A stretch of 64,000 nucleotides of DNA from an uncultured Clostridia bacterium (GTDB lineage: Bacteria > Bacillota > Clostridia > Lachnospirales > Lachnospiraceae): the NCBI GenBank assembly GCA_948467395.1, contig CAOKDX010000010.1, positions 1-64,000 on the forward strand, read 5' to 3'. Of the stretch, positions 5,397 to 37,673 are shown one piece after another. Under the pieces are notes generated by a model. That model was not told the origin of the DNA. It ran no database searches and saw nothing but the letters and a program-made list of their open reading frames with translations. The position numbers and the translations under genes were made by a program. Each line of letters starts with the position of its first letter. Position 1 is the first letter of the stretch.

Positions 5397-5492
5397 ATTT
5401 CTCCCATAAGTAATAATATTTTTTTCACATTTAGGTGGTGCTTTTTATCAAAGTATAACTCATGTATGGTAATTGCGAAAGGAGGAATTTTC
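5397..5492. promoter_or_regulatory. Divergent regulatory gap between cargo and mobility genes
   Basis: This short AT-rich gap separates the minus-strand DUF6076-type gene from the plus-strand mobility operon. A TATAAC box (about 5453-5458) with a weak TTAGGT box 17 bases upstream is the best plus-strand promoter candidate. A clear GGAGG lies at 5481-5486 before a small open frame. Confidence 0.35.
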
Positions 5493-5555
5493 TTGCTTGT
5501 AACAAATCCTACAGGCAAAATACAGGTTTTTGCAGGATTTGAAAATAATATTTGA
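5493..5555 (+). CDS. Possible 20-residue leader peptide
   Basis: A TTG at 5493, preceded by a textbook aaaggaggaatttt site, opens a 20-codon frame (LVTNPTGKIQVFAGFENNI) ending 15 bases before the DUF961 start. An in-frame ATG at 5466 has no ribosome site. The strength of the site suggests the peptide is translated. Nothing is known of its role. It might couple translation into the mobility operon or simply be a degraded gene. Confidence 0.3.
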   Translation: MLVTNPTGKIQVFAGFENNI

Positions 5556-5570
5556 ATGGAGGAAATAAAT

Positions 5571-5945
5571 ATGGCAAACATCTTGAAGTACATCAAACTG
5601 GATATACAATCCACGTTAGAAAGTGGAACAACGCTTTTGATTGAAAAACCACGAGTGTATGAAAATTATGACGAGGGCGTGAAACAAGGTCCGGCAGGAT
5701 TGGCGTATCCCTGTCTTTGCGAGGGACTGGGGTTCGAGAAATTGACAATAAAAATCCCCGGCACAACGATTCCGCAGGTGGCATATGAAAATGAGCCAAT
5801 TCCCGTTAAATTTGAGGAGTTAGAGGGAAAACTCTGGAAGGATTTTCGGAATGGGGGCGAGGTCAAACTCTCTGTAACCGCTAAGGGCATTGCGCCTGTA
5901 GAAGAAAGACCTAAGTTGCGAATGAGTAAAGGAGAAAAAGCATGA
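5571..5945 (+). CDS. DUF961 (YdcP-like) protein of Tn916-type elements
   Basis: This 124-residue protein (MANILKYIKLDIQSTLESG...) matches the DUF961 family represented by Tn916 Orf22/Orf23 and ICEBs1 YdcP. Family members always sit at the start of the mobility operon and are thought to assist replication or transfer, although their biochemical role is not settled. ATG 5571 is chosen for its GGAGG eight bases upstream; the ATG at 5556 lacks one. The stop codon overlaps the next start as ATGA, showing translational coupling to the FtsK-type ATPase. Confidence 0.85.
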   Translation: MANILKYIKLDIQSTLESGTTLLIEKPRVYENYDEGVKQGPAGLAYPCLCEGLGFEKLTIKIPGTTIPQVAYENEPIPVKFEELEGKLWKDFRNGGEVKLSVTAKGIAPVEERPKLRMSKGEKA

Positions 5946-7186
5946 GAGAAAGTAAAGAAATAAAATTGAAACCACAGCAGTTTTCTTGGTTGAGATATTT
6001 AATTTGCGTATGGTTTGCAGGAATATTGCTGTTGTGTGTAGGGGCTGTATTATGGAGTAACGCTTGGTGTGTGGCAGGACTTTTTGTCCTGCCTAGCATT
6101 GGCATACTATACCAAACAACGGTAAGAAACAAGCTTTGCAAAATCAAAAAAATATCCGAGCGTATCGAAGATTTTATCCGAAAGAACAGCCTGTACCAAT
6201 CACACTATGCCATCAGACGGACACTGTTTCGAGAGAAAGACGTGGAAATCATGGACTATTACCCACAGATAACCTATACAGAGATACCATGCGACAACAT
6301 TTTCCGTCTGAAATTCCGTCTGGATGGCTCGCCACAGGCACAGCGGTTCCGGGAACTGGAACAACCGCTTTCAGATATGTTCTGTACTGTGTGTACGGAC
6401 AAAATCGAGGAAAGGGGATATATTACCTATTGTTTTGAACTGTATGGGCAGAAACAGGCAGTTATAGAATCAGCAGAGGATATACTTCCTGCCGGGGAAA
6501 ATGAAATAGCTTTTTCCGGTGATGTCGTCTGGAACTGGAAGCAGACGCCCCATCTCCTTCTTACTGGAACTACAGGGAGCGGCAAGACACAGTTGGCACA
6601 ATATATTATTTATTGTCTGCTTTCGCAGGGGGTTCGGGTAATATACTGTGACCCGAAAAATGACGATGATATGCGGTTCTTTCTGCGTGATAAACCTGTC
6701 TGTTATGTTACGAAAGAAAATGACATAGCAAAGGTGGTTCGTGAAGTGGAGGAAGAAGTGCGACTGCGAGAAAAGGACTTAGATAACATGGGACTGGAAG
6801 AAGCAGAGTTTAACCCTGTATTTCTGTTTTTTGATGAACTGATAGCTTTCACGAAACTTGCGTCCAAAAAGACCTATGAAGAGACTGCAAGAAGGCTCTC
6901 ATCCATAGTGGTTACTGGCAGAAGCAAGCGTATTTATGCTGGAATGATTTTGCAAAGACCTGACGCTAATTTTATAGAAGGTGCAATTCGTGATAATCTT
7001 GGCTGTAAAATCTGCATGGGGCAGATGAGCGAAACTGCTTATACAATGTCCTTTGGCTCTGACTTTTCTCATATGAGGAATTACCGCAGGGAGATTGGCT
7101 CTGGACTGATTTACAGACAGGGGGTAGATACAAAACCTCGTGAACTGATTGCACCTTTTATTTGTGAGGGGGCATTGAGCAGGTAA
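5942..7186 (+). CDS. FtsK/SpoIIIE-type DNA translocase (coupling-protein-like)
   Basis: This 414-residue protein has two N-terminal membrane segments (about residues 17-60, LRYLICVWFAGILLL then a WCVAGLFVLPSIGILY stretch), then an FtsK/HerA ATPase domain. Walker A is TGTTGSGKT with Lys215, and Walker B is VFLFFDE near residues 291-297. The size and layout fit Tn916 Orf21/ICEBs1 ConQ-like coupling proteins, which pump DNA to the transfer channel at the membrane. It overlaps DUF961 by 4 bases and is followed after 8 bases by the hairpins of the presumed replication origin. With no secretion genes present, it would have to dock to another element's channel; that is inference. Confidence 0.85.
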   Translation: MRESKEIKLKPQQFSWLRYLICVWFAGILLLCVGAVLWSNAWCVAGLFVLPSIGILYQTTVRNKLCKIKKISERIEDFIRKNSLYQSHYAIRRTLFREKDVEIMDYYPQITYTEIPCDNIFRLKFRLDGSPQAQRFRELEQPLSDMFCTVCTDKIEERGYITYCFELYGQKQAVIESAEDILPAGENEIAFSGDVVWNWKQTPHLLLTGTTGSGKTQLAQYIIYCLLSQGVRVIYCDPKNDDDMRFFLRDKPVCYVTKENDIAKVVREVEEEVRLREKDLDNMGLEEAEFNPVFLFFDELIAFTKLASKKTYEETARRLSSIVVTGRSKRIYAGMILQRPDANFIEGAIRDNLGCKICMGQMSETAYTMSFGSDFSHMRNYRREIGSGLIYRQGVDTKPRELIAPFICEGALSR

Positions 7187-7193
7187 CTGTGGC

Positions 7194-7240
7194 ACAGGTG
7201 GCAGCATTTCGGAGAAATGGAGCGGAGCACCGCCACCTGT
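7194..7240. repeat. Inverted repeat beside the replication origin
   Basis: ACAGGTGGC (7194-7202) and GCCACCTGT (7232-7240) are exact complements with a 29-base GC-rich loop. They lie immediately upstream of the nick-site hairpin. This could be an initiator-binding or strand-specific structure of the origin, or part of an oriT. Confidence 0.5.
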
Positions 7241-7244
7241 AGGT

Positions 7245-7279
7245 TCACTGGGGTGTGACACTACGACACACCCCAGTGA
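7245..7279 (+). other. Rolling-circle double-strand origin (dso) nick hairpin
   Basis: A perfect 13-bp stem (TCACTGGGGTGTG, 7245-7257, complement at 7267-7279) encloses a 9-base loop. Across the loop and right arm runs ACTACGAC (7260-7267), which matches the pMV158-family nick sequence TACTACG/AC except for its first base. The predicted nick falls between G7265 and A7266. The encoded initiator immediately downstream resembles pMV158 RepB, so origin and protein agree. Confidence 0.75.
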
Positions 7280-7311
7280 TAAATGTTCATTGTTCAAAAG
7301 TGGAGGTGCAT

Positions 7312-7890
7312 ATGGAGATAAAGAGAACAAGAAACTTTGCAACGGTTGTCTATCCAGAATCCGCACCCACAAACTGGAAACTGGTACTACAGGAGCAGTG
7401 TGTCCCTGCACTGATTTCCCCGATTCATAACAGGGATGTGAACACAGACGGAACAATCAAAAAGGAGCATTATCATGTGATGATTCTGTTTGACGGTGTA
7501 AAAACGCAGGAACAGGCAAAAGAGGTCTTTTCTGTAATTGGCGGTGTTGGTGTTGAACCAGTGAAAAGTGTCCGGGCATACGCAAGGTATCTCTGTCATC
7601 TGGATAGTCCCGATAAGGTTCATTATAGTCCAGAGGATGTACTTTCCCTGTCTGGTGCGGATTATGATACCATGATTCGGCTTGCCAGTGATAAGTATTC
7701 GGCAATCGGGGAAATGATTGAGTTCTGTATTGAAAATGGTGTGGATAGTTATGCACAGCTTCTGCTATATGCGAAGAATACACGTAATGACTGGTTTCAT
7801 GTTCTGTGCGACAGCGGAACGGTAACGGTTGTTCAGTTTTTGAAGTCGAGATATTGGGAAATGCACAAATATAAGGCAGGAGGCGAGTAA
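7312..7890 (+). CDS. pMV158 RepB-like (Rep_2) rolling-circle replication initiator
   Basis: This 192-residue protein is close in layout to RepB of pMV158. It has the N-terminal 'YPESAPTNWKL' and 'ALISPIHNRDVN' blocks, the metal-binding HUH motif as HYH at residues 53-55, and the catalytic tyrosine in RAYARYLCH (Tyr90 or Tyr93). Such proteins nick the plus strand at the dso and remain covalently attached while the circle rolls. ATG 7312 has GGAGG 5 bases upstream; an earlier GTG at 7255 lies inside the origin hairpin and is rejected. It overlaps the next start by one base. The Rep may also act as the relaxase for mobilization, as reported for other integrative elements, but this is inference. 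Confidence 0.85.
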   Translation: MEIKRTRNFATVVYPESAPTNWKLVLQEQCVPALISPIHNRDVNTDGTIKKEHYHVMILFDGVKTQEQAKEVFSVIGGVGVEPVKSVRAYARYLCHLDSPDKVHYSPEDVLSLSGADYDTMIRLASDKYSAIGEMIEFCIENGVDSYAQLLLYAKNTRNDWFHVLCDSGTVTVVQFLKSRYWEMHKYKAGGE

Positions 7891-8108
7891 TGGGAAAACA
7901 TCAAAATAATGAGGGTGTAATCCCTGTATGGAAACGGTACGCACTGATGATTTCAGAAGCGTCAGCCTATTACCATATCGGGGAAAATAAACTGCGGATG
8001 ATAGCAGACGAGCATCCAGAATCAGATTTTATTATTATGAATGGCAATCGAGTATTGATTAAGCGACAAAAGTTTGAACAATACCTAGACCATGCTACCA
8101 TTGTATAA
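7890..8108 (+). CDS. xis: Excisionase of the Tn916 Xis family
   Basis: This 72-residue protein resembles Tn916 Xis: VWKRYALMISEASAYYHIG, then ENKLRMIADE, and the ending IIMNGNRVLIKRQKFEQYLD. It is a winged-helix DNA-binding factor that directs the integrase to excise. The start overlaps the stop of the rep gene (TAATG), with GGAGGCGAG upstream, so the two are translationally coupled. The integrase follows after a 107-base structured gap. Confidence 0.88.
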   Translation: MGKHQNNEGVIPVWKRYALMISEASAYYHIGENKLRMIADEHPESDFIIMNGNRVLIKRQKFEQYLDHATIV

Positions 8109-8127
8109 TCTGAAATTCAATATGGAA

Positions 8128-8196
8128 AGAGACCCTGCTTTGTGGTAAAATATTATTACGAGTTTGGGTCTCTAACCTTGAAAAAATTATTCAAGG
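8128..8196 (+). promoter_or_regulatory. Two stem-loops in the xis-int gap
   Basis: AGAGACCC (8128-8135) pairs with GGGTCTCT (8166-8173), and CCTTGAA (8176-8182) pairs with TTCAAGG (8190-8196). The second stem ends just before the int ribosome site (aaaggagagac), so the structure could modulate integrase translation or transcript ends. Confidence 0.45.
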
Positions 8197-8215
8197 CAGA
8201 AAGGAGAGACAGACC

Positions 8216-9415
8216 ATGAGTGAAAAAAGGAGAGATAAAAGAAACAGGATTTTACATAATGGAGAGACCCAGAGAAAAGATGGTCGTTATCGTTTTACAT
8301 ATCTTGATACAGACGGAAACAAGAAAGATGTTTACAGTTGGCGGTTAGACCATAATGACCCTTATCCCAAGGACAAGAAAAAGGACTTGTCCTTGAGGGA
8401 AAAGGAAAAGCAGATTGAACAGGATATGTTTCATCAAATCGTATCAAATGGCGGTAATTATACGGTGCTGACACTGGTAGAGAAATATGTCTCCCTCAAA
8501 ACAGGGGTACGGCATAATACGGAAGCAGGGTATAAAACCGTAATCAATATTTTGAAAAAAGACCCTTTCGGAAGCCGACGCATTGACAAAGTGAAACTGT
8601 CTGACGCTAAGGCTTGGCTGATTAAGTTACAACAGGTAGACGGCAGGGGGCACAGTTCTATCCACTCTATCCGAGGTGTGCTTAGACCAGCGTTTCAAAT
8701 GGCAGAAAATGATGATTTGATAAGAAAGAATCCGTTTCAGTTTGAGTTAGTTTCCGTTGTCGTAAACGATAGTGTCACAAGAGAAGCAATTACCAGAAAA
8801 CAGCAAAGAGAATATTTGCGTTTTATCAGAGAGGACAAGCATTTTTGCAGATACTACGAGGGAATTTATATTTTATTCCATACGGGTCTGCGTATCTCGG
8901 AATTTTGCGGATTGACATTAGCGGATATTGAATTTGACAAAAAGCGTATTCGGGTCAATCACCAGTTACAACGAACCAGCGGGATGCAATATATCATTCA
9001 AGCACCTAAGACGGAAAGCGGAGTGAGGTATATCCCCATGACGGACGAGGTAGAACAGTGTTTCCGTACCATTATAAACAATCGTAAAGCACCAAAGGTT
9101 GAGCCAATGGTAGACGGATATACAGGCTTTCTCTATCTTGATAAAAATGATATGCCTATGGTTGCCCTGCATTGGGAAAAGTATATGCAACATATCCGTC
9201 AGAAGTATAACAGCATTTACAAGGTGCAAATGCCAACCGTTACCCCTCATGTATGCCGACACACCTTTTGTTCCAACATGGCAAAAAGCGGTATGAATCC
9301 CAAAACGCTACAATACATAATGGGACATAGTGATATCAGTGTCACTTTGAATACCTATACTCATGTAGGTTTTGAAGATGCAGAAAGCGAGTTGCAACGT
9401 GTGATGAATGGCTAA
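8216..9415 (+). CDS. int: Tyrosine integrase, Tn916 family
   Basis: This 399-residue protein begins MSEKRRDKRNRILHNGE, like Tn916 Int (MSEKRRDNRGRILKTGE). It has an N-terminal arm-binding domain, a core-binding SAM-like domain (residues ~85-180) and the catalytic domain. The catalytic set is visible: Arg226 (TGLRISE), His345 and Arg348 (HVCRHTF), His371 (MGHSDIS) and Tyr381 (NTYTH). All are intact, so the enzyme should be active. It sits 165 bases before the phosphatase start and 184 bases before the right core, in the usual position for an integrase next to its attachment site. The older integrase relic at 1829-1975 is nearly identical over its end. Confidence 0.93.
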   Translation: MSEKRRDKRNRILHNGETQRKDGRYRFTYLDTDGNKKDVYSWRLDHNDPYPKDKKKDLSLREKEKQIEQDMFHQIVSNGGNYTVLTLVEKYVSLKTGVRHNTEAGYKTVINILKKDPFGSRRIDKVKLSDAKAWLIKLQQVDGRGHSSIHSIRGVLRPAFQMAENDDLIRKNPFQFELVSVVVNDSVTREAITRKQQREYLRFIREDKHFCRYYEGIYILFHTGLRISEFCGLTLADIEFDKKRIRVNHQLQRTSGMQYIIQAPKTESGVRYIPMTDEVEQCFRTIINNRKAPKVEPMVDGYTGFLYLDKNDMPMVALHWEKYMQHIRQKYNSIYKVQMPTVTPHVCRHTFCSNMAKSGMNPKTLQYIMGHSDISVTLNTYTHVGFEDAESELQRVMNG

Positions 9416-9441
9416 CATAGGCAAATGGTAAAACAAAATAA

Positions 9442-9467
9442 TTTACCACCATTTTTACCACTTTTGC
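9442..9467. repeat. Right copy of the terminal repeat, candidate integrase arm site
   Basis: TTTACCACCATTTTTACCAC followed by TTTTGC matches the block at 2255-2280 with one substitution region and one indel. It lies between the int stop and the right core. Confidence 0.5.
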
Positions 9468-9580
9468 AAACAAAAACATGGGAAAATATGGGACGATTTA
9501 AGAAAATATGCTTGAAACCACAGGTAATCAGAAATGGGCAGAAGCCTTGAGAATAAAGGAAATAAAGGAGTTTTAGAAAC

Positions 9581-10042
9581 ATGATAAAAATACTTTTTAT
9601 CTGCCACGGCAACATCTGCCGTTCCCCCATGGCCCAGTTCGTATTTCAGGACATGGTAAACAAACGTGGTCTGGCAGACCAGTTTATAATTGATTCCAAA
9701 GCTACCAGCACAGAGGAGTTAGGGAACTCCCCGCACCGGGGAACCGTGCGCAAAATGAATGAGCTGGGGATTCCCATGATCCCTCACCGCGCGTCCCAGC
9801 TGAATCGGCGGGATTATGATGATTACGATTATTTTATCGGAATGGACAGCTGGAATATCAGGAATATGAACCGCATTCTGGCTGGCGATCCGGAGGGGAA
9901 GGTTTTTAAACTTCTAACCTTTGGAAGTGATGGCAGGGATATTGCGGATCCGTGGTATACTGGTAACTTTGACGAGACCTATGCAGATATTTTAGAGGGA
10001 TGTGAGGGACTTTTGGCATATCTGCTGGAAAATCATAGCTGA
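9581..10042 (+). CDS. Low-molecular-weight protein tyrosine phosphatase
   Basis: This 153-residue LMW-PTP (ArsC/Wzb fold) has the P-loop CHGNICR with nucleophile Cys8 and Arg14, and the general acid Asp123 in IADPWYTG. It removes phosphate from protein tyrosine or arginine residues; substrates cannot be read from sequence. The first codons lie within the right attachment region, so the ribosome site (aaaggagttttagaaac) and start come from the mobile element while the body is chromosomal. Full length and catalytic residues are preserved, showing that integration does not inactivate the gene but places it behind element-borne expression signals. Confidence 0.93.
   Translation: MIKILFICHGNICRSPMAQFVFQDMVNKRGLADQFIIDSKATSTEELGNSPHRGTVRKMNELGIPMIPHRASQLNRRDYDDYDYFIGMDSWNIRNMNRILAGDPEGKVFKLLTFGSDGRDIADPWYTGNFDETYADILEGCEGLLAYLLENHS
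9599..9609. other. Right attachment site core (attR candidate)
   Basis: ATCTGCCACGG is identical to 2180-2190 and encodes part of the phosphatase P-loop (I-C-H-G). Targeting a conserved active-site codon block would give the element a reliable site in many hosts. Confidence 0.75.
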
Positions 10043-14378: not shown

Positions 14379-14425
14379 TATTCACAACACAACTATTGGA
14401 GAATGGAACAAAAGGAGGACGAAGC

Positions 14426-17400
14426 ATGATGAGAAAAAGAACGGATGGCGTCGGCAGACGGCCCTTGGCAGTTCTGACAGCGGCAGCTCTTCTGGGTGCC
14501 GGTCTGGCGATACCTGCGCCGCAGGCAGCAGCTGCTGTCAAGCCTGCCAAACTGACGGTTTCGGCGGCATCCAAAACATTGTATGTCGGGAAATATTCCC
14601 CTTACAAGACCACGAAGCTGAAAGTGAAGATCACACCGTCTAAGGCGAATAAGAAAGTAAAGTACAAATCCCTTACGAAGAAAGTGGCGACAGTCAGTTC
14701 AAAGGGAAAAGTCACCGCCAAGAAGAAGGGGACGGCGAAGATCCGGGTCACAACAGTGGCCAAGAACAAGAAAGGAAAGAAGCTCACTAAGACCATTAAG
14801 ATCAAAGTAAAGAAATATGCAGCGCCCACCGGGATCTCAGCCAGTATCTCGGCGGATAAGTTCCAGGCGGGACAGACGGCACAGATCAAGGCATCCCTCA
14901 GTGGAAAGCCCACCTGTAAGACCATTGTCTATACTTCCTCGAACAAAAATGTTGCCACAGTGAACAGCAAAGGGCTGGTGACCGGTGTAGCCGCCGGCGG
15001 GGCTGTGATCACAGTAAAGTCAAAGGTGAAAGGCAGCAAAGGCAAGGTGCTGCAGAAGAAGATTGCCGTAACCATTACGGCGCAGCCGCAGGATCCGGGC
15101 GGATCCAGCACGGATTCTCCCCAGCCTCCCGCTACATCGACGCCGCCGGTGACAACACCGCCAGTGACAACTCCGCCAGAGGTGTCGGCGAATGTTGAAC
15201 TGACGCCGGTGACCATTGCGAAGCTGCCCTCTCTGGAGGATGCCAATGCCGATATAAAACCGGCAGACATGACGCTGAATAAGAAAAATGATCTCTCCAT
15301 GGCGGACAGCAATGACGGAATGACCATCGCCCTTACCATGAAGATCAATAAACTCAACGCAAGTGGAAATACCTTCCTCTGGAATACTTCCGGAACGTCC
15401 TATCCCATGGCATTCCAGGCTGTGACACCGGACGGCAAGCTCTATACCGAGCTCGACTGGCGTTCCCAGTTCTATACGGAAGAGAATTTTATTCCCATCG
15501 GGGAAGAATTTACGCTGGTTACCACTTATACAGATAAGGAGATCCGTATCTTCCTGAATGGAGAGTTAAAGGCATACTACAACGCGGAAACCGACTATTC
15601 CATCGGAGGGGCATTTACCCACAGTGCCGATACAAATCTGTGCCCGGCCAATACAACGGGATATCTGGCCACGGTGCGGTCCTCCTGGACCCAGTATCTG
15701 CTTGGTGTGGCTCCGTCCTGCATCAGCCAGGGCAGCACGGTAACAGACTGTGCAGTGAAGGATTTTGCGATATATAAAGCAGCACTGCAGCCGAAGCCAC
15801 AGGGGGCGGCAGAACAGCTGATCTATCCCAGTACCGCGGCTTATAAAATTTCACCGGATAAGGATACCGTTGATTTTGGCGCTGCCCTGATCAGTGCATC
15901 GGCGGATACAAAGGTGACCTATACATCATCAGATACCGGCGTTGCGGGCTTTACCAAGGACGGAAAGCTGCGTCTGATCACTGGCGGCCAGGTGGACATC
16001 ACAGCAAAGACCTCCGGCGGCGTTACCGCAGTCTGCCGGGTGACGGTGAATTATTCCACCATAGAGCTTCATGACCCATCCGTATTCCAGGATCCGGTTT
16101 CCGGGTACTATTATACGGTTGCCTCCCACTGTCTTGCCGGATATTCAAAAGACATGAAATCCTGGGCACTGGTGGCGGATTCCGGCAATGGATATGGTGC
16201 GAATAACAAGCTGTTTACCAAGCCGTATCAACAGGAATTCGAAGAGGTCTACAATTATGTAAAACCGGGAAATACCAATCCGGAAGGAGTCTGGGCGCCA
16301 TCCATCATTTACAGTGAGAAAGCGGCAAAATACTATATGTATGTGACGATTGCTGACGGAACAGCCCAGGGTAAATGTGCCATTGTGCTCACTTCCTCCG
16401 ATAAGCCGGACGGACCGTACAAATATGAAAAAATGATCGTGGCATCGGCGATGACCACGGCAGATGCCGACAAGACAAACCTGATGGATGTGCTGGGGAT
16501 CACAGATAAGTCCAAGATCCCGGCCAAATATACATCCAATGACAGATCCTATCCGGATTGTATCGACGCCACGGTATTTTATGATCATACCGGCAGACTC
16601 TGGATGGTATACGGCTCTTTCACCTGTGCAGGCGGTATCCGTATGATCCAGCTGGATCCGGTGACGGGCGACCGGCTGAAGAGCGGAGAGTACAGCGATG
16701 ACGGCACGGCGGATACAATTGGTGATAAGGACCCCTATTATGGAATCAGGCTTGCCAATAATAATGGCGAGGGACCTTTCATTATGGAAGTGCCTTCTGA
16801 GAAATCAAGCACTGGATATTACTATTTCCTCTGGACATCTGTGGGCGGACTGCAGTCCTATGGCGGGTATCATATGAGAATGTACCGTTCTGAAAATGTA
16901 GAGGGACCTTATGTGGATACAGCCGGGAATAAGGCTACGGCAAACCTTGGAAGATCGGAAGTGGGACTCCGGGTTATGGATAACTTTAAGTTCTCCTTTA
17001 TGGATTTTGCCTATACTTCCTGCGGCGGTAACTCTGCGATCCTCTGCGCCGATAAGGGAACCGGCGAGGATGGCAAGATGTTCCTGCACTACCACCAGAA
17101 ATGGGCCAACGGGACAGAAGCCTTTGTGACAAAATCGAACCAGATGTTCCTGAATGAGGACGGCTGGCTTGTGACAGCGCCGTTTGCCTATGACGGCGAG
17201 AGCATGGATAAAACTTATACAAAGGAACAGGTGGCAGGGGATTATGAATTCATTCTGCACCGCACAACCTATACGAAGACCGATAATAAGAATTATGATT
17301 ATGCTGCCTCCGTGCCGCTGAAACTCAATGCCGATGGCACGATTTCCAGGGGATATACGGGAACCTGGGAACTGAAGGACAATTTTATTACCATTACAAT

Positions 17401-18583
17401 CGGCAAAGAGACTTACAAGGGCGTTGTATTTGAACAGACCATGGAAGATAAAAACCGGACGAAGACCATGGTATTTACCGGAGTGGGCGATGGTAACATC
17501 AAGTCCGTCTGGGGCAGCCGGGTTCAGAAAACAGATAAAGAGGCGGTGGCTTATGACGCCTCAAAGATATCCGTAAAGGAGACGGCGAAGGAAGATTTTG
17601 AGCTGGAGACAGAAGGCTTCTTCGGCTCCACAGTAACTTGGACGTCTGACAATGCCGCCATTAAAATAGAAGGAAAGACAGCCAAGGTCACAAGGGCGCT
17701 GACTGATACTGAAGTGAAGCTCGCTGCTGTGATCAAACGCGGCAGTACTGAGGAGAAGAGGGAATTTAATGTTACCGTACAGGCACTGGAGCTTGTGATT
17801 AGTTCCGTGATCCGGGGCGACCATATCGACCTGCCGGCAGAGCTTGGTGGAAACGCTATTGTTTGGACGTCCTCTAATCCGGCTGTGATCAATACGGACG
17901 GAACTGTGACGCAGCCGGAAACGGAAAATGTTACGGTTAAGCTTACGGCTGCCATCGGCACAGTGAAAAAGGAATTTGACGTTGTCGTTATGGCAAAGAC
18001 TGTCACCAGCTATATCTATCAAAATGATTATAGCAAGGCGACCACGGCGGATTGTGGATGGGTATCTCCCAATGCACAGGATTTTGCAACCATTCAAAAC
18101 GATACAGCGCATGGAAATTATTTCCAGTTTGCTCCCGCCCGCAATAATTCCAGGGGTGCTTATGCAGATTTTGGAGTGTCAGATAAGTTGAACGGCATCT
18201 ATGTTGTTGAGTTTGATGTGTCATTGAAGGCAGGAGATGAGCAGACAACAGAATTTGCCCTGATGGGAACAGATGCGGTATATACAGGAAACATTGTCAA
18301 TAACGGTATTGACAGTGGGTATATCTTCAAGATGGCTGCCACAAAGAATACGATGTGGTCGATCAACGGTTCGCAGGAAGTGGATATTCCGGCAGACTGG
18401 GTGCATGTTCTGGCTGCGGTAGATACCTCTAAGAAGGTGGCCAGCGTGAAGATCACAGACGAAAATAAGACGTATTTCGAGAGTGCCGTCCAGATCAGCG
18501 GTTCCGGTATATTGAAGGGAATGTATATCCGCGGCGGACGTTATGACTCTGTCACCAAGGTGGATAATATCAATATCTACTAA
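14426..18583 (+). CDS. Secreted multidomain GH43 arabinanase-like enzyme, paralogue 1
   Basis: This 1385-residue exported protein starts at ATG 14426 (aaaggaggacgaagc site; 14429 also possible). Order: signal peptide ending in AAAAV (~1-37); two Lys-rich bacterial Ig-like (Big_2-type) repeats (~40-215); a Pro/Thr/Ser linker (~220-255); a LamG/concanavalin-type domain (~270-460); another Ig-like repeat (~470-545); a GH43 five-blade propeller with HDPS Asp550, Asp714 (CIDATVFYD) and Glu782 (NGEGPF) as base, pKa modulator and acid; the GH43 C-terminal beta domain (~940-1040); two degenerate Ig-like repeats; and a C-terminal lectin-like domain. The best family match is endo-alpha-1,5-L-arabinanase, so pectic arabinan is the likely substrate. 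There is no sortase motif; the very basic Ig repeats may hold it on the wall. It has a tandem paralogue downstream. Confidence 0.85.
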   Translation: MMRKRTDGVGRRPLAVLTAAALLGAGLAIPAPQAAAAVKPAKLTVSAASKTLYVGKYSPYKTTKLKVKITPSKANKKVKYKSLTKKVATVSSKGKVTAKKKGTAKIRVTTVAKNKKGKKLTKTIKIKVKKYAAPTGISASISADKFQAGQTAQIKASLSGKPTCKTIVYTSSNKNVATVNSKGLVTGVAAGGAVITVKSKVKGSKGKVLQKKIAVTITAQPQDPGGSSTDSPQPPATSTPPVTTPPVTTPPEVSANVELTPVTIAKLPSLEDANADIKPADMTLNKKNDLSMADSNDGMTIALTMKINKLNASGNTFLWNTSGTSYPMAFQAVTPDGKLYTELDWRSQFYTEENFIPIGEEFTLVTTYTDKEIRIFLNGELKAYYNAETDYSIGGAFTHSADTNLCPANTTGYLATVRSSWTQYLLGVAPSCISQGSTVTDCAVKDFAIYKAALQPKPQGAAEQLIYPSTAAYKISPDKDTVDFGAALISASADTKVTYTSSDTGVAGFTKDGKLRLITGGQVDITAKTSGGVTAVCRVTVNYSTIELHDPSVFQDPVSGYYYTVASHCLAGYSKDMKSWALVADSGNGYGANNKLFTKPYQQEFEEVYNYVKPGNTNPEGVWAPSIIYSEKAAKYYMYVTIADGTAQGKCAIVLTSSDKPDGPYKYEKMIVASAMTTADADKTNLMDVLGITDKSKIPAKYTSNDRSYPDCIDATVFYDHTGRLWMVYGSFTCAGGIRMIQLDPVTGDRLKSGEYSDDGTADTIGDKDPYYGIRLANNNGEGPFIMEVPSEKSSTGYYYFLWTSVGGLQSYGGYHMRMYRSENVEGPYVDTAGNKATANLGRSEVGLRVMDNFKFSFMDFAYTSCGGNSAILCADKGTGEDGKMFLHYHQKWANGTEAFVTKSNQMFLNEDGWLVTAPFAYDGESMDKTYTKEQVAGDYEFILHRTTYTKTDNKNYDYAASVPLKLNADGTISRGYTGTWELKDNFITITIGKETYKGVVFEQTMEDKNRTKTMVFTGVGDGNIKSVWGSRVQKTDKEAVAYDASKISVKETAKEDFELETEGFFGSTVTWTSDNAAIKIEGKTAKVTRALTDTEVKLAAVIKRGSTEEKREFNVTVQALELVISSVIRGDHIDLPAELGGNAIVWTSSNPAVINTDGTVTQPETENVTVKLTAAIGTVKKEFDVVVMAKTVTSYIYQNDYSKATTADCGWVSPNAQDFATIQNDTAHGNYFQFAPARNNSRGAYADFGVSDKLNGIYVVEFDVSLKAGDEQTTEFALMGTDAVYTGNIVNNGIDSGYIFKMAATKNTMWSINGSQEVDIPADWVHVLAAVDTSKKVASVKITDENKTYFESAVQISGSGILKGMYIRGGRYDSVTKVDNINIY

Positions 18584-18686: not shown

Positions 18687-18715
18687 TTGACTTTTCGTGC
18701 CCGGTTTTGTATAAT
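18687..18715 (+). promoter_or_regulatory. Promoter of the second GH43 gene
   Basis: TTGACT (18687-18692), 17-base spacer, TATAAT (18710-18715), nearly a copy of the promoter at 14350-14378. Confidence 0.8.
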
Positions 18716-18761
18716 TATTCACAAATACAAAATTAGTAAGACTTGCAAAGGAGGACGAGAA

Positions 18762-21700
18762 ATGTTGATACGGAGTACATATGGCGCTGTCAGAAAACCG
18801 TTGGCAGTTCTAACGGCGGCAGCTCTTCTCGGTGCCGGTCTGATGATGCCCGCACCAAAGGCAGAAGCTGCGGCCAGGCCCGTGAAGCTGACGGTCAAGG
18901 CAGACGCGAAGACATTGTATGTGGGGAAATATTCCCCCTACAAGACTACGAAACTGAAGGTGAAGATTGCCCCATCGAAGGCAAAGAAGAAGGTGAAGTA
19001 CAAATCCCTTACCAAAAAGGTAGCAGCGGTTTCTTCCAAGGGAAAGGTGACTGCCAAAAAGAAAGGGACGGCGAAGATTAAGGTCACGACTGTGGCGAAG
19101 AACAAAAAGGGAAAGAATCTCAGTAAGATTATTAAGATCAAGGTAAAGAAGTACGTGGCACCAACCGGAATCACCGCAGGGATTACAGCGGATACGCTTC
19201 AGGCCGGGCAGACAGCCCAGGTTAAGGCATCCCTTACCGGCAACCCCACCACAAAGACGATGGTCTATACTTCCACGGATCAAAAGGTAGCCACGGTGAA
19301 CAGCAAAGGGCTGGTGACTGCTGTGGCAGCCGGCAGGGCAGTGATCACAGTGAAATCAAAGGTTAAGGGAAATAAGGGAAAAATATTGCAGAAAGCATTT
19401 ACGGTTACCGTCACAGGCGGTTCCCAGGGACCCGGTAATGTGAATTCACCGGCGCCCACGGGCGGGTCCTCTGAGGCACCCTCTACGACCCCGCCGGCTT
19501 CGCCGGATGTACCGTCAGAATCAGTGTCCCCTGACCCGGGTGTGACACCGTCCGCCGATCCGACGACAGAACCCACCAGCAAACCGACGGAGACATCGAA
19601 GCCGGACCCGACATCAGCACCGGACGTATCGGCAGATGCGGAACTGACGCCGGTGACCATTGTCAGCCTGCCCTCTCTGGAGGATGCGGCGGTTGATATC
19701 AGACCGGCAGACATGACGCTGAATAAGAAAAACGATCTGTCCATGGCGGATAGTAATGAAGGCATGACGATCTCCCTCACTATGACCATCAGTAAGCTGA
19801 ACAGCAGCGGCAATACCTTCCTTTGGAATACTTCCGGAACCTCATATCCTATGGCATTCCAGGCAGTGACCCCGGACGGGAAGCTGTATACCGAGCTTGA
19901 CTGGCGCTCCCAGTTCTATACGGCGGAGAACTTTATTCCCATTGGGAGAGAGTTTACACTGGTGACCACTTATACTGACAAGGAGATCCGTATCTATCTT
20001 GACGGGGAGTTAAGGGCATATTACAATGCGGTGACCGGTTATTCCATTGGCGGAGCCTTCACCCACAGTGCCGATACGAATCTGTGCCCGGCCAATACGA
20101 CGGCATATCTGGCCACCGTGCGGGCCTCCTGGACCCAGTTCCTGCTGGGCGTAGCCCCGGCATGCATCAATCAGGGAAATACAGTGACAGCCGGTACGGT
20201 AAAGGATTTTGCCATTTATAAAAAACCGCTGCAGCCAAAGCCGCAGAATACGAAGGAGCAGCTGATTTATCCCGAGACAGCGTCTTATGAAATCACACCG
20301 GACAAGGATACCGTTGATTTTGGTGCTACCCTGGTGAATGCATCGGCAGGGGCGAAGGTGTCGTATACATCATCCGATACGAATGTGGCAGGATTTACCA
20401 AAGATGGCAAGCTGCGCCTATTAAAGGGTGGTCAGACAGATATTACGGCAAAGACATCCGGCGGCGTTACCGCAGTCTGCCGGGTGACGGTGAATTATTC
20501 TGCCATAGCCCTTCATGATCCGTCTGTATTCCAGGATCCGGTTTCCGGGTACTATTATACGGTTGCCTCCCACTGTCTTGCCGGATATTCAAAGGATATG
20601 AAATCCTGGGCACTGGTGGCGGATTCCGGCAATGGATACGGCGCCAATAATAAGCTGTTTACCAAGCCATATCAGCAGGAGTTTGAAGAGGTCTACAATT
20701 ATGTAAAACCGGGAAATGCCAATCCGGAAGGAGTCTGGGCGCCATCCATTATTTACAGCGAAAAGGCGGCGAAATATTATATGTATGTCACCATCGCCGA
20801 TGGGACACCTCAGGGAAAATGCGCCATTGTGCTCACCTCATCCGACAAACCGGATGGACCATACAAATACGAGAAAATGATTGTGGCATCCGCCATGACC
20901 ACAGAGGATGCCGACAAGACAAACCTGATGGATGTGCTGGGGATCACAGATAAGTCCAAGATCCCGGCGAAGTATACATCCAATGACAGATCTTATCCGG
21001 ACTGTATCGACGCCACGGTATTTTACGATCATACCGGCAGACTCTGGATGGTTTACGGCTCCTTTACCTGTGCCGGCGGCATCCGCATGATTCAGCTGGA
21101 TCCGGTGACAGGCGACAGGCTGGACAGCGCAAAGTATACCGACAACGGCACGCCGGACCAGCTTGGGGATAAGGATCCGTATTATGGAATCAAGCTCGCC
21201 AACAATAATGGTGAGGGACCCTTTATTATGGAGGTGCCTTCCGACAAATCGAGCACGGGATACTACTATTTTCTCTGGACATCTGTTGGAGGACTACAGT
21301 CCTACGGCGGGTATCATATGAGAATGTACCGTTCCGAAAATGTGGAAGGACCCTACGTGGATACGGCGGGACAGGAAGCCACAGCCAGTCTGGGAAGATC
21401 GGAAGTAGGGCTTCGGGTTATGGATAACTTTAAGTTCTCCTTTATGGACTTTGCCTATACCTCCTGCGGCGGTAACTCTGCGATTCTCTGTGCCGACAGG
21501 GGGACTAGTGAGGACGGAAAAATGTTCCTGCACTATCATCAGAAATGGGCCAATGGAACAGAAGCCTTTGTAACAAAATCAAACCAGATGTTCCTGAATG
21601 AGGACGGCTGGCTTGTGACGGCGCCATTTGCCTATGACGGCGAGAGCATGGACAAAACCTATACAAAGGAGCAGGTGGCAGGAGATTACGAATTCGTCCT

Positions 21701-23075
21701 TCACCGCACCACCTATACTAAGACGGACAATAAAAATTATGATTATTCGGATTCTGTCGTTGTGAAGCTGAATCAAGACGGTACGATTTCTGGTGGTTAT
21801 ACAGGAACATGGACTTTTGACAACAACTATATCAATATAAAAATTGGGAAAGAGACATACAAGGGCATTGTATTGGAACAGACAATGGAGGATAGAAACC
21901 GCACAAAGGCAATGGTATTTACAACTGTTGGTGACGGAAATATAAAATCTGTCTGGGGTGCAAGGATGGTATTTGACGATGAGTACTATGCCGGTGAGGA
22001 TCTCAAGAGGGTCAGCATACCTGCGAAAACAGATAAAGATTTTACCATACCTCTCAGAGGCTACAGCGGTTCGGAAATTTCATGGAAGTCCGACAATGCA
22101 GAGGCGGTTCGGGTAAATGCGGAGAAGGCGGTAGTAAAAAGAATGGACGAAGAGGTTACCGTCACCCTGACGGCCACGGTTAAACGGGGAGAGAAGACTG
22201 TGACGAAGGATTACGAGATCGTTATTCCTGCCTTTGAGATTGTGCTGCCGACGTCAATCACGGCGGATACCACCCTGACGCTGCCGGACCGTTCCCCACA
22301 GGGAAGCGCCATTGAATGGACCTCAAGCGATTCTAATGTAATTGATACTGCAACAGGAAAGGTCACTGTGACGCCGGGTGTTGTCGCACAGGTAACATTG
22401 ACTGCGAAGTATGGAACGGTTACAAAAGTATTTGAGATCCGTGTCGGTGAGATGAACCTGAAATCCATCTATACCCAGGACTATGAAGCGGCGGGCCTCG
22501 ATGTGGCGGCTGCGGGCTGGACGAAGCATGCCGGACTGACAGGGGAGATCATTACAGAGACGGGAAACAAATTTGCGAAATTTACTTCCACTGGCAGCGG
22601 TCCCAGAAGCGGTCTTCACACATTCGGGTTTTCTTTAGACAGCCTCACCTCCACGTATACAGTGGAGACGGATTTTGCCGTTAAGACTGCCACATATTCA
22701 GGATCCGGACAGCCCACCACGCAGGTTGCCCTGGTGAGCCAGTCCAATACAACAAAAGGGGACAGTGCTGCGATATCGCCAAATGAATGCATTGTGGACC
22801 TTCAGGCCACCGGTATGAGTTCCACAGAATTTGTGATAAATGGTTCCGATAAATCGGTTAGACTTCCGGCAGGGGGATGGTGCCATATGGAAGCAGCCAT
22901 CAATCAGACACAGAAACAGGTATTCCTTCTGATTACGGATGCAGAGGGCACAGAGCTCTATTCTGGAACCCATGCTGTCAGCGGGGATACGAAGATAAAA
23001 GGAATCTATATTCTAAATGGCCGCGGTGGAACTACCGCACAATTTGATAATACAACCGTCAAAGCGACAGAATGA
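18762..23075 (+). CDS. Secreted multidomain GH43 arabinanase-like enzyme, paralogue 2
   Basis: This 1437-residue paralogue has the same domain order as its neighbour. It has a signal peptide (LAVLTAAALLGAGLMMPAP, cut near EAAA), Lys-rich Ig-like repeats, a longer Pro/Ser/Thr/Asp linker (~225-290), LamG, Ig, GH43 (Asp586 in HDPS, Asp750, Glu818), the GH43 C-terminal domain, Ig-like repeats and a C-terminal lectin-like domain. ATG 18762 follows caaaggaggacgagaa. The LamG and GH43 parts are almost identical to paralogue 1, often at DNA level, while the linker and the region after the GH43 C-terminal domain have diverged. The two may therefore differ in binding specificity but not in cleavage chemistry. 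The stretch ~21745-21975 is noticeably more AT-rich than its surroundings. Confidence 0.85.
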   Translation: MLIRSTYGAVRKPLAVLTAAALLGAGLMMPAPKAEAAARPVKLTVKADAKTLYVGKYSPYKTTKLKVKIAPSKAKKKVKYKSLTKKVAAVSSKGKVTAKKKGTAKIKVTTVAKNKKGKNLSKIIKIKVKKYVAPTGITAGITADTLQAGQTAQVKASLTGNPTTKTMVYTSTDQKVATVNSKGLVTAVAAGRAVITVKSKVKGNKGKILQKAFTVTVTGGSQGPGNVNSPAPTGGSSEAPSTTPPASPDVPSESVSPDPGVTPSADPTTEPTSKPTETSKPDPTSAPDVSADAELTPVTIVSLPSLEDAAVDIRPADMTLNKKNDLSMADSNEGMTISLTMTISKLNSSGNTFLWNTSGTSYPMAFQAVTPDGKLYTELDWRSQFYTAENFIPIGREFTLVTTYTDKEIRIYLDGELRAYYNAVTGYSIGGAFTHSADTNLCPANTTAYLATVRASWTQFLLGVAPACINQGNTVTAGTVKDFAIYKKPLQPKPQNTKEQLIYPETASYEITPDKDTVDFGATLVNASAGAKVSYTSSDTNVAGFTKDGKLRLLKGGQTDITAKTSGGVTAVCRVTVNYSAIALHDPSVFQDPVSGYYYTVASHCLAGYSKDMKSWALVADSGNGYGANNKLFTKPYQQEFEEVYNYVKPGNANPEGVWAPSIIYSEKAAKYYMYVTIADGTPQGKCAIVLTSSDKPDGPYKYEKMIVASAMTTEDADKTNLMDVLGITDKSKIPAKYTSNDRSYPDCIDATVFYDHTGRLWMVYGSFTCAGGIRMIQLDPVTGDRLDSAKYTDNGTPDQLGDKDPYYGIKLANNNGEGPFIMEVPSDKSSTGYYYFLWTSVGGLQSYGGYHMRMYRSENVEGPYVDTAGQEATASLGRSEVGLRVMDNFKFSFMDFAYTSCGGNSAILCADRGTSEDGKMFLHYHQKWANGTEAFVTKSNQMFLNEDGWLVTAPFAYDGESMDKTYTKEQVAGDYEFVLHRTTYTKTDNKNYDYSDSVVVKLNQDGTISGGYTGTWTFDNNYINIKIGKETYKGIVLEQTMEDRNRTKAMVFTTVGDGNIKSVWGARMVFDDEYYAGEDLKRVSIPAKTDKDFTIPLRGYSGSEISWKSDNAEAVRVNAEKAVVKRMDEEVTVTLTATVKRGEKTVTKDYEIVIPAFEIVLPTSITADTTLTLPDRSPQGSAIEWTSSDSNVIDTATGKVTVTPGVVAQVTLTAKYGTVTKVFEIRVGEMNLKSIYTQDYEAAGLDVAAAGWTKHAGLTGEIITETGNKFAKFTSTGSGPRSGLHTFGFSLDSLTSTYTVETDFAVKTATYSGSGQPTTQVALVSQSNTTKGDSAAISPNECIVDLQATGMSSTEFVINGSDKSVRLPAGGWCHMEAAINQTQKQVFLLITDAEGTELYSGTHAVSGDTKIKGIYILNGRGGTTAQFDNTTVKATE

Positions 23076-23099: not shown

Positions 23100-23140
23100 T
23101 ACAGGGTGGAAATCGGTGAGTTTCCACCCTGTATTTTTAT
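23100..23140 (+). terminator. Terminator after GH43 paralogue 2
   Basis: A perfect 13-bp stem (TACAGGGTGGAAA, 23100-23112, complement at 23121-23133) with an 8-base loop is followed by TTTTTATTT. Confidence 0.9.
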
Positions 23141-29392: not shown

Positions 29393-29923
29393 TCAAGGAT
29401 TCATTGGAGTGAGAAGCTGTACCATTGCCTGTCGGTACAGCTTCTCACTCTGCATTTTCCAGTTTTCACATACTCTTATGGCGTCGGCCTCTGTGGCAAC
29501 ATCCAGTTCCAGACGGAAGAGGATATGGGTGCCCTCCCGCAGAGTGCAGGAAGCGAGATAAGTGCCCTCCCGTGTGCGCTGGTAATCGCTGATCAGGGAA
29601 CTCTTCTCCAGGATTTCATATTTTTTCTCTGTCAGGTATTCGTCGATTTCCTGTTGGATCTCCGGGGACAGCAGGGAACCAAAGGATTCCAGTGTCTCCC
29701 GTCCTGTCTCTGTCAGCAGATAGCAGGACTGGTGGTAAGTGGCATCTTCCTTGATCAGATCCCCCTGCACCAGATCCCCGAAGGCACTGAGTATGGTGAA
29801 ATAATTTGTATAACCGTGGTCGGTGACAAAATCAAAGATAATTCCCTGCGGCAGGGGTGTGCGCACCCTGTTCAACATATATAATACGATGAGTTTATAT
29901 ATATTTACCGGTTCACTTGCCAT
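29393..29923 (-). CDS. DUF4364 family protein
   Basis: This 176-residue protein of the Clostridia-specific DUF4364 family begins MASEPVNIYKLIVLYMLNRV and contains YTNYFTILSAFGDLVQGDLI, a winged-helix-like start followed by an alpha/beta domain. It may be a transcription regulator, although no member is well characterised. ATG 29923 follows ggaaggtcaaa; the longer start at 29941 is less well placed. It is the last gene of a minus-strand operon, overlapping the radical SAM gene by 11 bases. Confidence 0.87.
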   Translation of the reverse strand: MASEPVNIYKLIVLYMLNRVRTPLPQGIIFDFVTDHGYTNYFTILSAFGDLVQGDLIKEDATYHQSCYLLTETGRETLESFGSLLSPEIQQEIDEYLTEKKYEILEKSSLISDYQRTREGTYLASCTLREGTHILFRLELDVATEADAIRVCENWKMQSEKLYRQAMVQLLTPMNP

Positions 29924-36840: not shown

Positions 36841-37673
36841 CGCTGCGGGACGTGCTGAAGAGGGGAGAGGCGGAGCTGTCTGAGGCGGGGGTTCCCGAGG
36901 CGGAATGCAATGCCTGGTATCTGTTCTCGCGGTGTTTCTCTCTGGAGCGGAGCGGATACTTTCTTCGTCAGGAGGAACCGGCGGGGGAGAAGGAGTGTGC
37001 GGAATACAGTAAACTTCTGGCTCTCCGCAGGACACGGATGCCCCTGGAATATATTCTTCATGAGACGGAGTTTATGGGACTGACCTTTTCTGTGGACGAA
37101 CGTGTGCTGATCCCGCGCCAGGACACGGAGATTCTGGCAGAAGAGCTGCTGAAGGTCTGCGAGGGGCGGGATGTACTGGATCTGTGCACCGGATCCGGCT
37201 GTATCGGCATCAGTCTTGCCGTGCTGGGAAAATGCCGTTCTGTCCTGCTGTCTGATATTTCTGCAGGTGCGCTGGAGATTGCCGGGCGCAATGCAGACGG
37301 AAATGGTGCGGCGGTGTCTATGGTGCAGAGTGATCTGTTTGAAAATATCAGGGGGCGATTTGACATTATCGTGTCAAACCCCCCCTATATTCCCTCCGGC
37401 CAGATCGCATCCCTGATGCCGGAGGTGCGGGACTACGAGCCCCGCACCGCGCTGGACGGTCATGAGGACGGGCTTGCCTTCTACAGGTGTATCATTAAGG
37501 AAAGCCGTGGCTTTTTAAGGAGAAATGGAATCCTGGCACTGGAGATTGGCGCAGACCAGGGGCAGGCTGTGTCGTCACGAATGGAGCAGTGGGGATACCA
37601 TGATATAGAGATAAAAAAGGATCTGGCGGGACTGGACCGCATTGTGTGGGCGGTGGTGAAGGAGGAAATGTGA
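36837..37673 (+). CDS. prmC: Release factor glutamine methyltransferase
   Basis: This 278-residue HemK/PrmC methylates the glutamine of the GGQ motif in release factors using S-adenosylmethionine. It has an N-terminal helical domain (1-75), SAM-binding [10 protein letters not shown] at 115-124 and the catalytic NPPY at 181-184. It is coupled on both sides (ATGA with DUF1385, TGATG with prfA) and its substrate RF1 is encoded immediately after it. Confidence 0.95.

Follow-up and report, generated by a model that had tools for sequence, protein, structure and literature searches.

The hairpin and adjoining repeats at positions 7245-7296 of the window (the whole 64-kb stretch of DNA analysed here) are best read as the nic locus of an origin for rolling-circle replication, its cognate Rep being encoded just behind it (7312-7890), on a 7.4-kb IME integrated at ptp; we put the probability of this reading at about 0.7. 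That the hairpin is the nick site of this Rep, taken as a claim of its own, we hold with high confidence. An earlier note on this DNA had pointed to a pMV158-type nick hairpin beside a RepB-like gene in an integrated element. Its observation of the hairpin is confirmed and proved stronger than the note had stated, and its interpretation is supported in part, being right on the protein and the site and wrong in calling the element an ICE rather than an IME. With an apparent plasmid-style origin and the gene of the matching enzyme found in a small element on the chromosome of a gut-type bacterium, it becomes testable whether such elements, besides jumping, copy themselves.

The nick hairpin (7245-7279, + strand) is a perfect 13-bp inverted repeat with arms at 7245-7257 and 7267-7279 and a 9-nt loop, ACACTACGA, at 7258-7266; the perfect stem with the nick motif across its loop, as first described, was borne out. 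The octamer ACTACGAC occupies 7260-7267, and its final C doubles as the first base of the right arm. According to PMC5030251, pMV158 is nicked at TACTACG/AC in the apical loop of IR-I, and CACTACGAC in the hairpin agrees with this sequence at eight of nine bases, the only mismatch being at the first base. By this precedent, the nick of a double-strand origin or oriT is predicted on the + strand at G7265/A7266; the cleavage position proposed earlier, 7265/7266, agrees with the pMV158 nick point when the latter is mapped onto the loop. The hairpin is separated from the ATG of rep (7312) by 32 bases, which corrects the 33 reported before. By itself, the octamer is weak evidence, since 0.57 copies are expected by chance on both strands of the window, where one was found, and 44 of 100 shuffles contained at least one. 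The improbable feature is the combination of ACTACGAC with a stem rather than the 8-mer. Perfect stems of at least 12 bp with loops of 3-12 nt numbered three in the 64-kb window and zero in each of three mononucleotide-shuffled windows, which preserve base composition only, and the DNA fold of 7180-7320 gave z = -4.5. A further motif hairpin at 37431 has a loop without the final AC and is read as chance. Two other perfect long inverted repeats were detected outside the element, at 29407-29450 (17 bp) and 23100-23133 (13 bp).

The position of the hairpin between tcpA and rep could also suit a terminator or an mRNA structure with a chance likeness to a nick site, an explanation that we regard as extremely improbable. 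The hairpin was absent from the terminator-like structures and has no T-run behind it, its loop is constant on stems that change from locus to locus, and it recurs in phage and plasmid loci that have no TcpA match. A search of 5400-9700 against Rfam returned two matches, both below gathering scores and both away from the hairpin.

The product of the gene behind the hairpin, a 192-aa HUH endonuclease of the RepB family, is encoded on the + strand (7312-7890) after a ribosome-binding site, GGAGG, read from the sequence at 7302-7306. Pfam assigned it to PF01719 (Rep_OBD, E 4e-41) and RepB_C (PF21861, E 4e-12), and a phmmer search of the PDB at E up to 1 gave three matches, all of them to pMV158-type RepB (best 3dkx, E 5e-11). 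The metal ligands of pMV158 RepB, H39, D42, H55 and H57, and its Tyr99 (as given in PMC5030251) align with H39, D42, H53, H55 and Y93 of the window Rep, and an alignment of 26 sequences, the window Rep among them, shows no change at these active-site residues. Around the catalytic tyrosine stands YLCH, in agreement with YLxH, the signature of the pE194/pMV158 cluster according to PMC6668415. Both motifs by which a RepB-like initiator had been recognised, HYH and AYARYLCH, are present, and the protein is a homologue of pMV158 RepB with a full active site. It is the only PF01719 match in the source genome assembly.

A feature absent from the earlier note adjoins the hairpin, namely tandem proximal repeats with a period of 7 (TGTTCAT/TGTTCA, 7284-7296, + strand), which are predicted to be the contact site of Rep; TGTTCANTGTTCA occurs a single time on the + strand of the window. 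The nic locus of pMV158 is likewise described in PMC9943647 as a hairpin with two 7-bp tandem proximal direct repeats. Across loci, a tandem repeat (unit of at least 6 nt, period 6-12, no more than 45 nt 3' of the stem) was detected in 50 of 60 hairpin loci, window included, against 5.5 expected from shuffles that preserve base composition only, a count that leaves out seven of the 15 listed Lactobacillales loci (one strand read). The period was exactly 7 in 48 of these 50. The ten hairpin loci that have no such repeat include two clostridial IMEs, L019 and L020, in which there is no perfect 7-bp tandem. The repeat sequence itself varies by locus (TGTTCA, TGGTCA, GTGACA, TAATCA), as would be predicted were each Rep to recognise the repeat at its own locus. 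The agreement in Rep family and nick site with pMV158 that had been claimed is thereby supported, and to it are added the conserved 7-bp repeats and a constant loop on stems that change in pairs.

Four nucleotides before the nick hairpin lies a second stem-loop with an inner hairpin and GGAGCGGAGC (7194-7240, + strand). The DNA fold of 7192-7242 gave z -3.9, and Rfam had no match at 7194-7240. Similar structures were observed in loci L014, L016, L017, L018 and L063; the stem of the inner hairpin changes among relatives yet stays paired, with AGCGGAGC constant, and AGCGGAGCG also lies 5' of the nick hairpin in L022 and L026. Alignments of this region were poor for eight IMEs and better for six sequences. 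The comparison is suggestive of a structure shared across relatives, and we propose 7194-7240 as a candidate only for the single-strand origin.

Conservation was assessed in 62 loci, made up of the window, 48 loci from a genome scan, eight of 396 plasmid records with a match, two of 39 phage records, and L004, L063 and L090. These loci cannot be counted as independent, since L090 and L018 seem to be one element and L057 and L058 are near-identical. Of the 56 loci with at least 150 nt of sequence upstream of the Rep match, window included, 43 have a hairpin carrying ACTACG (stem of at least 7 bp) in the 700 nt preceding that match, as compared with 0.05 in dinucleotide shuffles; the other 13 had none within that distance. 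No such hairpin was found on the strand opposite rep among the 62 loci. When the whole locus sequence is considered, 56 of 62 carry one, a figure that takes in eight hairpins outside 700 nt, four in loci with little upstream sequence, and L026. Some of the distant hairpins may be due to chance, foremost that of L034 (AT-only stem, 3.7 kb away) and those of L040 and L059 (far from rep), and the sequences of L010, L032, L043, L053, L054 and L056 contained no hairpin. It is this conservation in relatives that lifts the observation in the window far above chance.

Stem pairs 8, 9 and 10 lie beyond the 7 bp needed for selection. Of 59 distinct stems (70 loci), 53, 51 and 48 have a Watson-Crick pair at these respective positions, against 27, 29 and 33% when arms from different loci are combined; the register used was that of the longest stem, which somewhat favours these pairs, and the stems count sequences, not events. 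All four pair types occur at each of the three positions. This pattern amounts to compensatory change around a fixed loop, alike in phage, plasmid and IME loci. In nine clostridial IMEs the motif lies 44-56 nt before the Rep match, and TcpA stands beside rep in eight of the nine, a proportion that is partly circular, because the presence of TcpA or Tn916-type Xis/Int next to Rep was the basis of the IME label. Gene order varies, with TcpA following rep in L019 and L020; L016 ends before int, the TcpA of L015 is split over two ORFs, and L003, from the same genome as L014, was left out of the 62-locus set. In plasmid L013, an annotated CopG gene lies between hairpin and rep, and the motif is 452 nt before the Rep match. 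A cyanobacterial contig (Cuspidothrix, L050) encodes a Rep with 31% identity and has a distant match to the TcpA model and a 16-bp ACTACGAC hairpin.

The element that carries this origin measures 7.4 kb between att sites at 2162-2190 and 9581-9609, at the 5' end of ptp, which by its resemblance we take to encode a low-molecular-weight phosphatase. The right site, attR, consists of the first codons of ptp, and attL is a 29-nt near-copy (86%) of the 5' end of the gene, both on the + strand; comparable repeat pairs flank the elements of L015 (1412-1451 and 8271-8302) and L018 (656-690 and 8248-8298). All named genes of the element are on the + strand. A small conserved protein, presumably YdcP-like, is encoded 5' of the coupling protein (ORF 5571-5945, with another in-frame ATG at 5556); it had no Pfam or PHROG match, and its homologues sit upstream of TcpA in loci L016, L017 and L063. 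Next comes a TcpA/FtsK-type coupling ATPase of 414 aa (5942-7186), with Pfam matches over the cut-off to FtsK_SpoIIIE, AAA_10 and TrwB_AAD_bind and a PHROG match to FtsK/SpoIIIE-like proteins (E 9e-30). Behind rep are a Tn916-type excisionase, Xis (7890-8108; PF09035, E 2e-22), whose start overlaps the rep stop, and a Tn916-type tyrosine integrase, Int (8216-9415; PF00589 and PF02920). Cargo ORFs that carry no assigned name are present as well.

No T4SS or transfer-pore gene was recognised in the ORF list or by a Pfam scan of the nine element ORFs, five of which had no Pfam match. Because none was recognised between the att sites, gene content (Rep, TcpA and Xis/Int) leads us to class the element as an IME, and the reading as an ICE, under which it had first been labelled, was rejected. 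Its transfer would presumably depend on a helper; no helper ICE is evident, because the source assembly (97.7% complete) contains no match to PF12642 (TcpC) or PF19044. A prophage of an inovirus was also considered, since the nearest Reps outside IMEs include inoviral ones. Inoviruses carry a Zot/pI-type ATPase, whereas a model built from seven inovirus-type proteins found none in the first 16 kb of the window, and this reading was rejected. In scans of viral contigs, the Rep alignment retrieved one locus (L090), TcpA none, and the attP junction of the circle, searched with one pattern, none.

The element is rare, with a Rep match in four of 99 relatives, one of them a near-copy (L014) and one a remnant. 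Between the window and the congener's element L014, rep, xis, int and the gap between tcpA and rep are 95-96% identical, and four flanking chromosomal stretches are 83-89% identical. Part of the element has thus probably been exchanged recently, the evidence extending to that part rather than to the whole. The tcpA part (6571-7186) is only 84% identical to L014 against 95-96% for 7312-9412, and this difference suggests mosaic exchange inside the element. To the left of attL, the C-terminus of a Tn916-type integrase remains at 1801-1975; because of this remnant of a second integrase, we conclude that elements are arrayed in tandem at ptp. A partial AbiH-like ORF (1042-1788) lies further left, in keeping with decayed elements in tandem at this site. 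At the same ptp site of a congener (G014; L005 and L073), remnants of a Rep C-terminus and of Xis were observed with no integrase match; they represent a decayed sibling element.

Such decay, in the integrase remnant left of attL and in the congener's Rep and Xis remnants, together with a shortened TcpA in L014, would also be compatible with the hairpin and Rep being left over from a once-active element. We consider this improbable, as Rep, TcpA, Xis and Int of the window are open over their full length, and the 95-96% identity of rep, xis and int to L014, against 83-89% in the flanks, fits recent exchange; the tcpA part, however, is at 84%.

Under our preferred reading, a rolling-circle origin on an IME, Xis and Int would excise the element as a circle, and Rep would bind the 7-bp repeats and extrude the hairpin. 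Tyr93 of Rep would then cut the + strand at G7265/A7266, with Rep staying on the 5' end, and the 3'-OH at the nick would prime leading-strand synthesis, such that one nick would initiate strand transfer as well as the rolling-circle copying of the excised element. A single nick with this dual role is the simplest reading because an HUH enzyme lies beside a conserved nick site, with TcpA in addition. Taken separately, use of the nick for transfer is quite probable, its use for replication of the excised circle is likely to a somewhat lesser degree, and we place its use for both slightly above even odds. Rep seems to share a transcript with xis and int; if so, nicking while the element is integrated would need to be prevented, and no such control was identified.

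One alternative is that the site serves as a replication origin only, with Rep maintaining the circle, transfer proceeding from another oriT, and TcpA acting by another route. In favour of it, protein and site correspond to those of a plasmid replicon, and the RepB of that replicon is described as initiating replication. We nevertheless find this distinctly unlikely, given the association of TcpA with rep and the fact that no second relaxase-like gene was recognised in the scanned element ORFs (several of them matchless).

The likeness of the window to pMV158 extends to the Rep family, the H39/D42/HxH/Tyr active site, ACTACG/AC in a hairpin loop and two 7-bp proximal repeats; the difference is that the window hairpin lies directly before rep and inside an integrated element. 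pMV158 has a copG repressor gene between origin and rep. Neither copG nor any other gene fits between the window origin and rep, where there are only 32 nt. Three 11-bp bind repeats are placed 84 bp downstream of the pMV158 nick by PMC9943647, and both reading and repeat searches found no distal 11-bp repeats at about 84 bp from the window nick, a position inside rep. Because there is no copG and no such array, full plasmid competence of the IME origin is doubtful. The IMEs thus have the nic locus and initiator and are devoid of the CopG copy control of plasmid L013.

The missing bind repeats and copG would suit a site that is an oriT only, with Rep as the relaxase of a TcpA-dependent mobilization and an excised circle that does not replicate by itself, as would the presence of TcpA beside rep in most clostridial IME rows and near rep in two-thirds of the Lactobacillales loci described below. 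We judge this unlikely. Rep and the hairpin are of the vegetative replication type, as in complete circular inovirus and cryptic plasmid records, and the MobT relaxases of Tn916 and ICEBs1 perform both tasks: according to PMC5704250, MobT serves transfer as well as replication of the excised form. The window element resembles Tn916 and ICEBs1 in its Xis and Int families, which are of Tn916 type; those elements differ in being conjugative, with their own T4SS and their own relaxase (MobT/Rep_trans, PF02486, not PF01719).

The blurring of plasmid and IME is an idea already in print and not new here. Streptococcal IMEs with a PF01719 relaxase and TcpA were published in 2017 (Coluzzi 2017, PMC5357655), a source according to which there was at that time no report of excised IMEs replicating and a double role of non-canonical relaxases cannot be excluded; PMC5704250 likewise suggests that such relaxases might serve both transfer and maintenance. 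In the literature searched (with few subscription journals) and in passages of PMC7563491, no origin or nic site is reported for PF01719 IMEs. As far as these searches reach, the new part is the origin anatomy of PF01719 IMEs, in clostridial and Lactobacillales elements. The open question of their replication is hereby turned into a prediction about one bond.

For comparison, we sampled 295 genomes from the order to which an Enterococcus genome belongs, which we take to be Lactobacillales; PF01719 was present in 51, and 30 loci were fetched. TcpA was near rep in 20 of the 30, and 17 of these had a short Rep. A TACTACGAC hairpin was detected in 15 of the 17, at -61 to -176 from the Rep match, in none of the three loci with a long Rep and TcpA, and, as a motif hairpin, in two of the ten loci that had no TcpA. 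An integrase was beside rep in all six of the longer regions. The genomes with the TcpA-Rep-Int module have the same hairpin and 7-bp repeats as the window. We infer that these elements are the published streptococcal Rel_PF01719 class, which the window element resembles in its TcpA-Rep-Int module, its tyrosine integrase and its lack of a recognised T4SS. The clostridial Reps differ from that class in forming a separate clade (AU p 0.00067). The target differs too, being the 5' end of ptp in the window, and "ptp" does not occur in the main text of PMC5357655.

The nearest non-IME Reps were those of the inovirus bajarodino virus 68 (59%), of pRGI00384 (L006, HG796313.1; likewise 59%), a circular record listed as a plasmid, and of loci from the genome scan. 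Because pRGI00384 has a Zot-type ATPase gene, adjoining its PF01719 Rep, it is probably the genome of an inovirus or filamentous phage rather than a plasmid. Inoviruses with a PF01719 Rep, along with cryptic plasmids, share with the window element both the closest Reps and the same hairpin and repeats. In a second tree (73 rows), the nine clostridial IME Reps formed one group (95/99); the corresponding branch in the first tree (92/79) was below the starred level. They nest in a group of 32 rows (100/100) together with 14 inovirus-type, three plasmid and six unclassed rows, and so lie among the Reps of filamentous phages and cryptic plasmids. L090, L061, L059 and L050 were dropped from both trees, and L060, L056, L038, L004, L034 and L053 (long or doubtful rows) from the second as well. 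A single clade of both IME groups was rejected (AU p 0.000665, 25 IME rows vs 48), a result that depends on the model, the Lactobacillales group being on a long branch. Two histories would explain this, a double origin of the TcpA-origin-Rep-Int layout or a replacement of Rep and origin in one of the lines. The tree is unrooted and gives no direction of Rep flow between phages and IMEs.

Through this tree test, the relaxases of IMEs are linked to the replication genes of phages and plasmids. Tentatively, and at a little below even odds, we propose that the PF01719 Rep moves together with its nic locus as a mobile origin module. TcpA/integrase elements would have acquired this module on two or more occasions, the clostridial ones from a lineage to which filamentous phages also belong. 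In these IMEs, replication of the excised circle and conjugative transfer would then both depend on a single HUH enzyme and a single hairpin, and phage, plasmid and IME would be three guises of one replicon. For such work, the hairpin and 7-bp repeats provide a precise bond, a minimal segment and a signature by which such elements can be found. Elsewhere in the window, ORFs 14396-18583 and 18687-23075 are large neighbours that, by eye, resemble tandem paralogues, with similar lysine-rich N-terminal parts.
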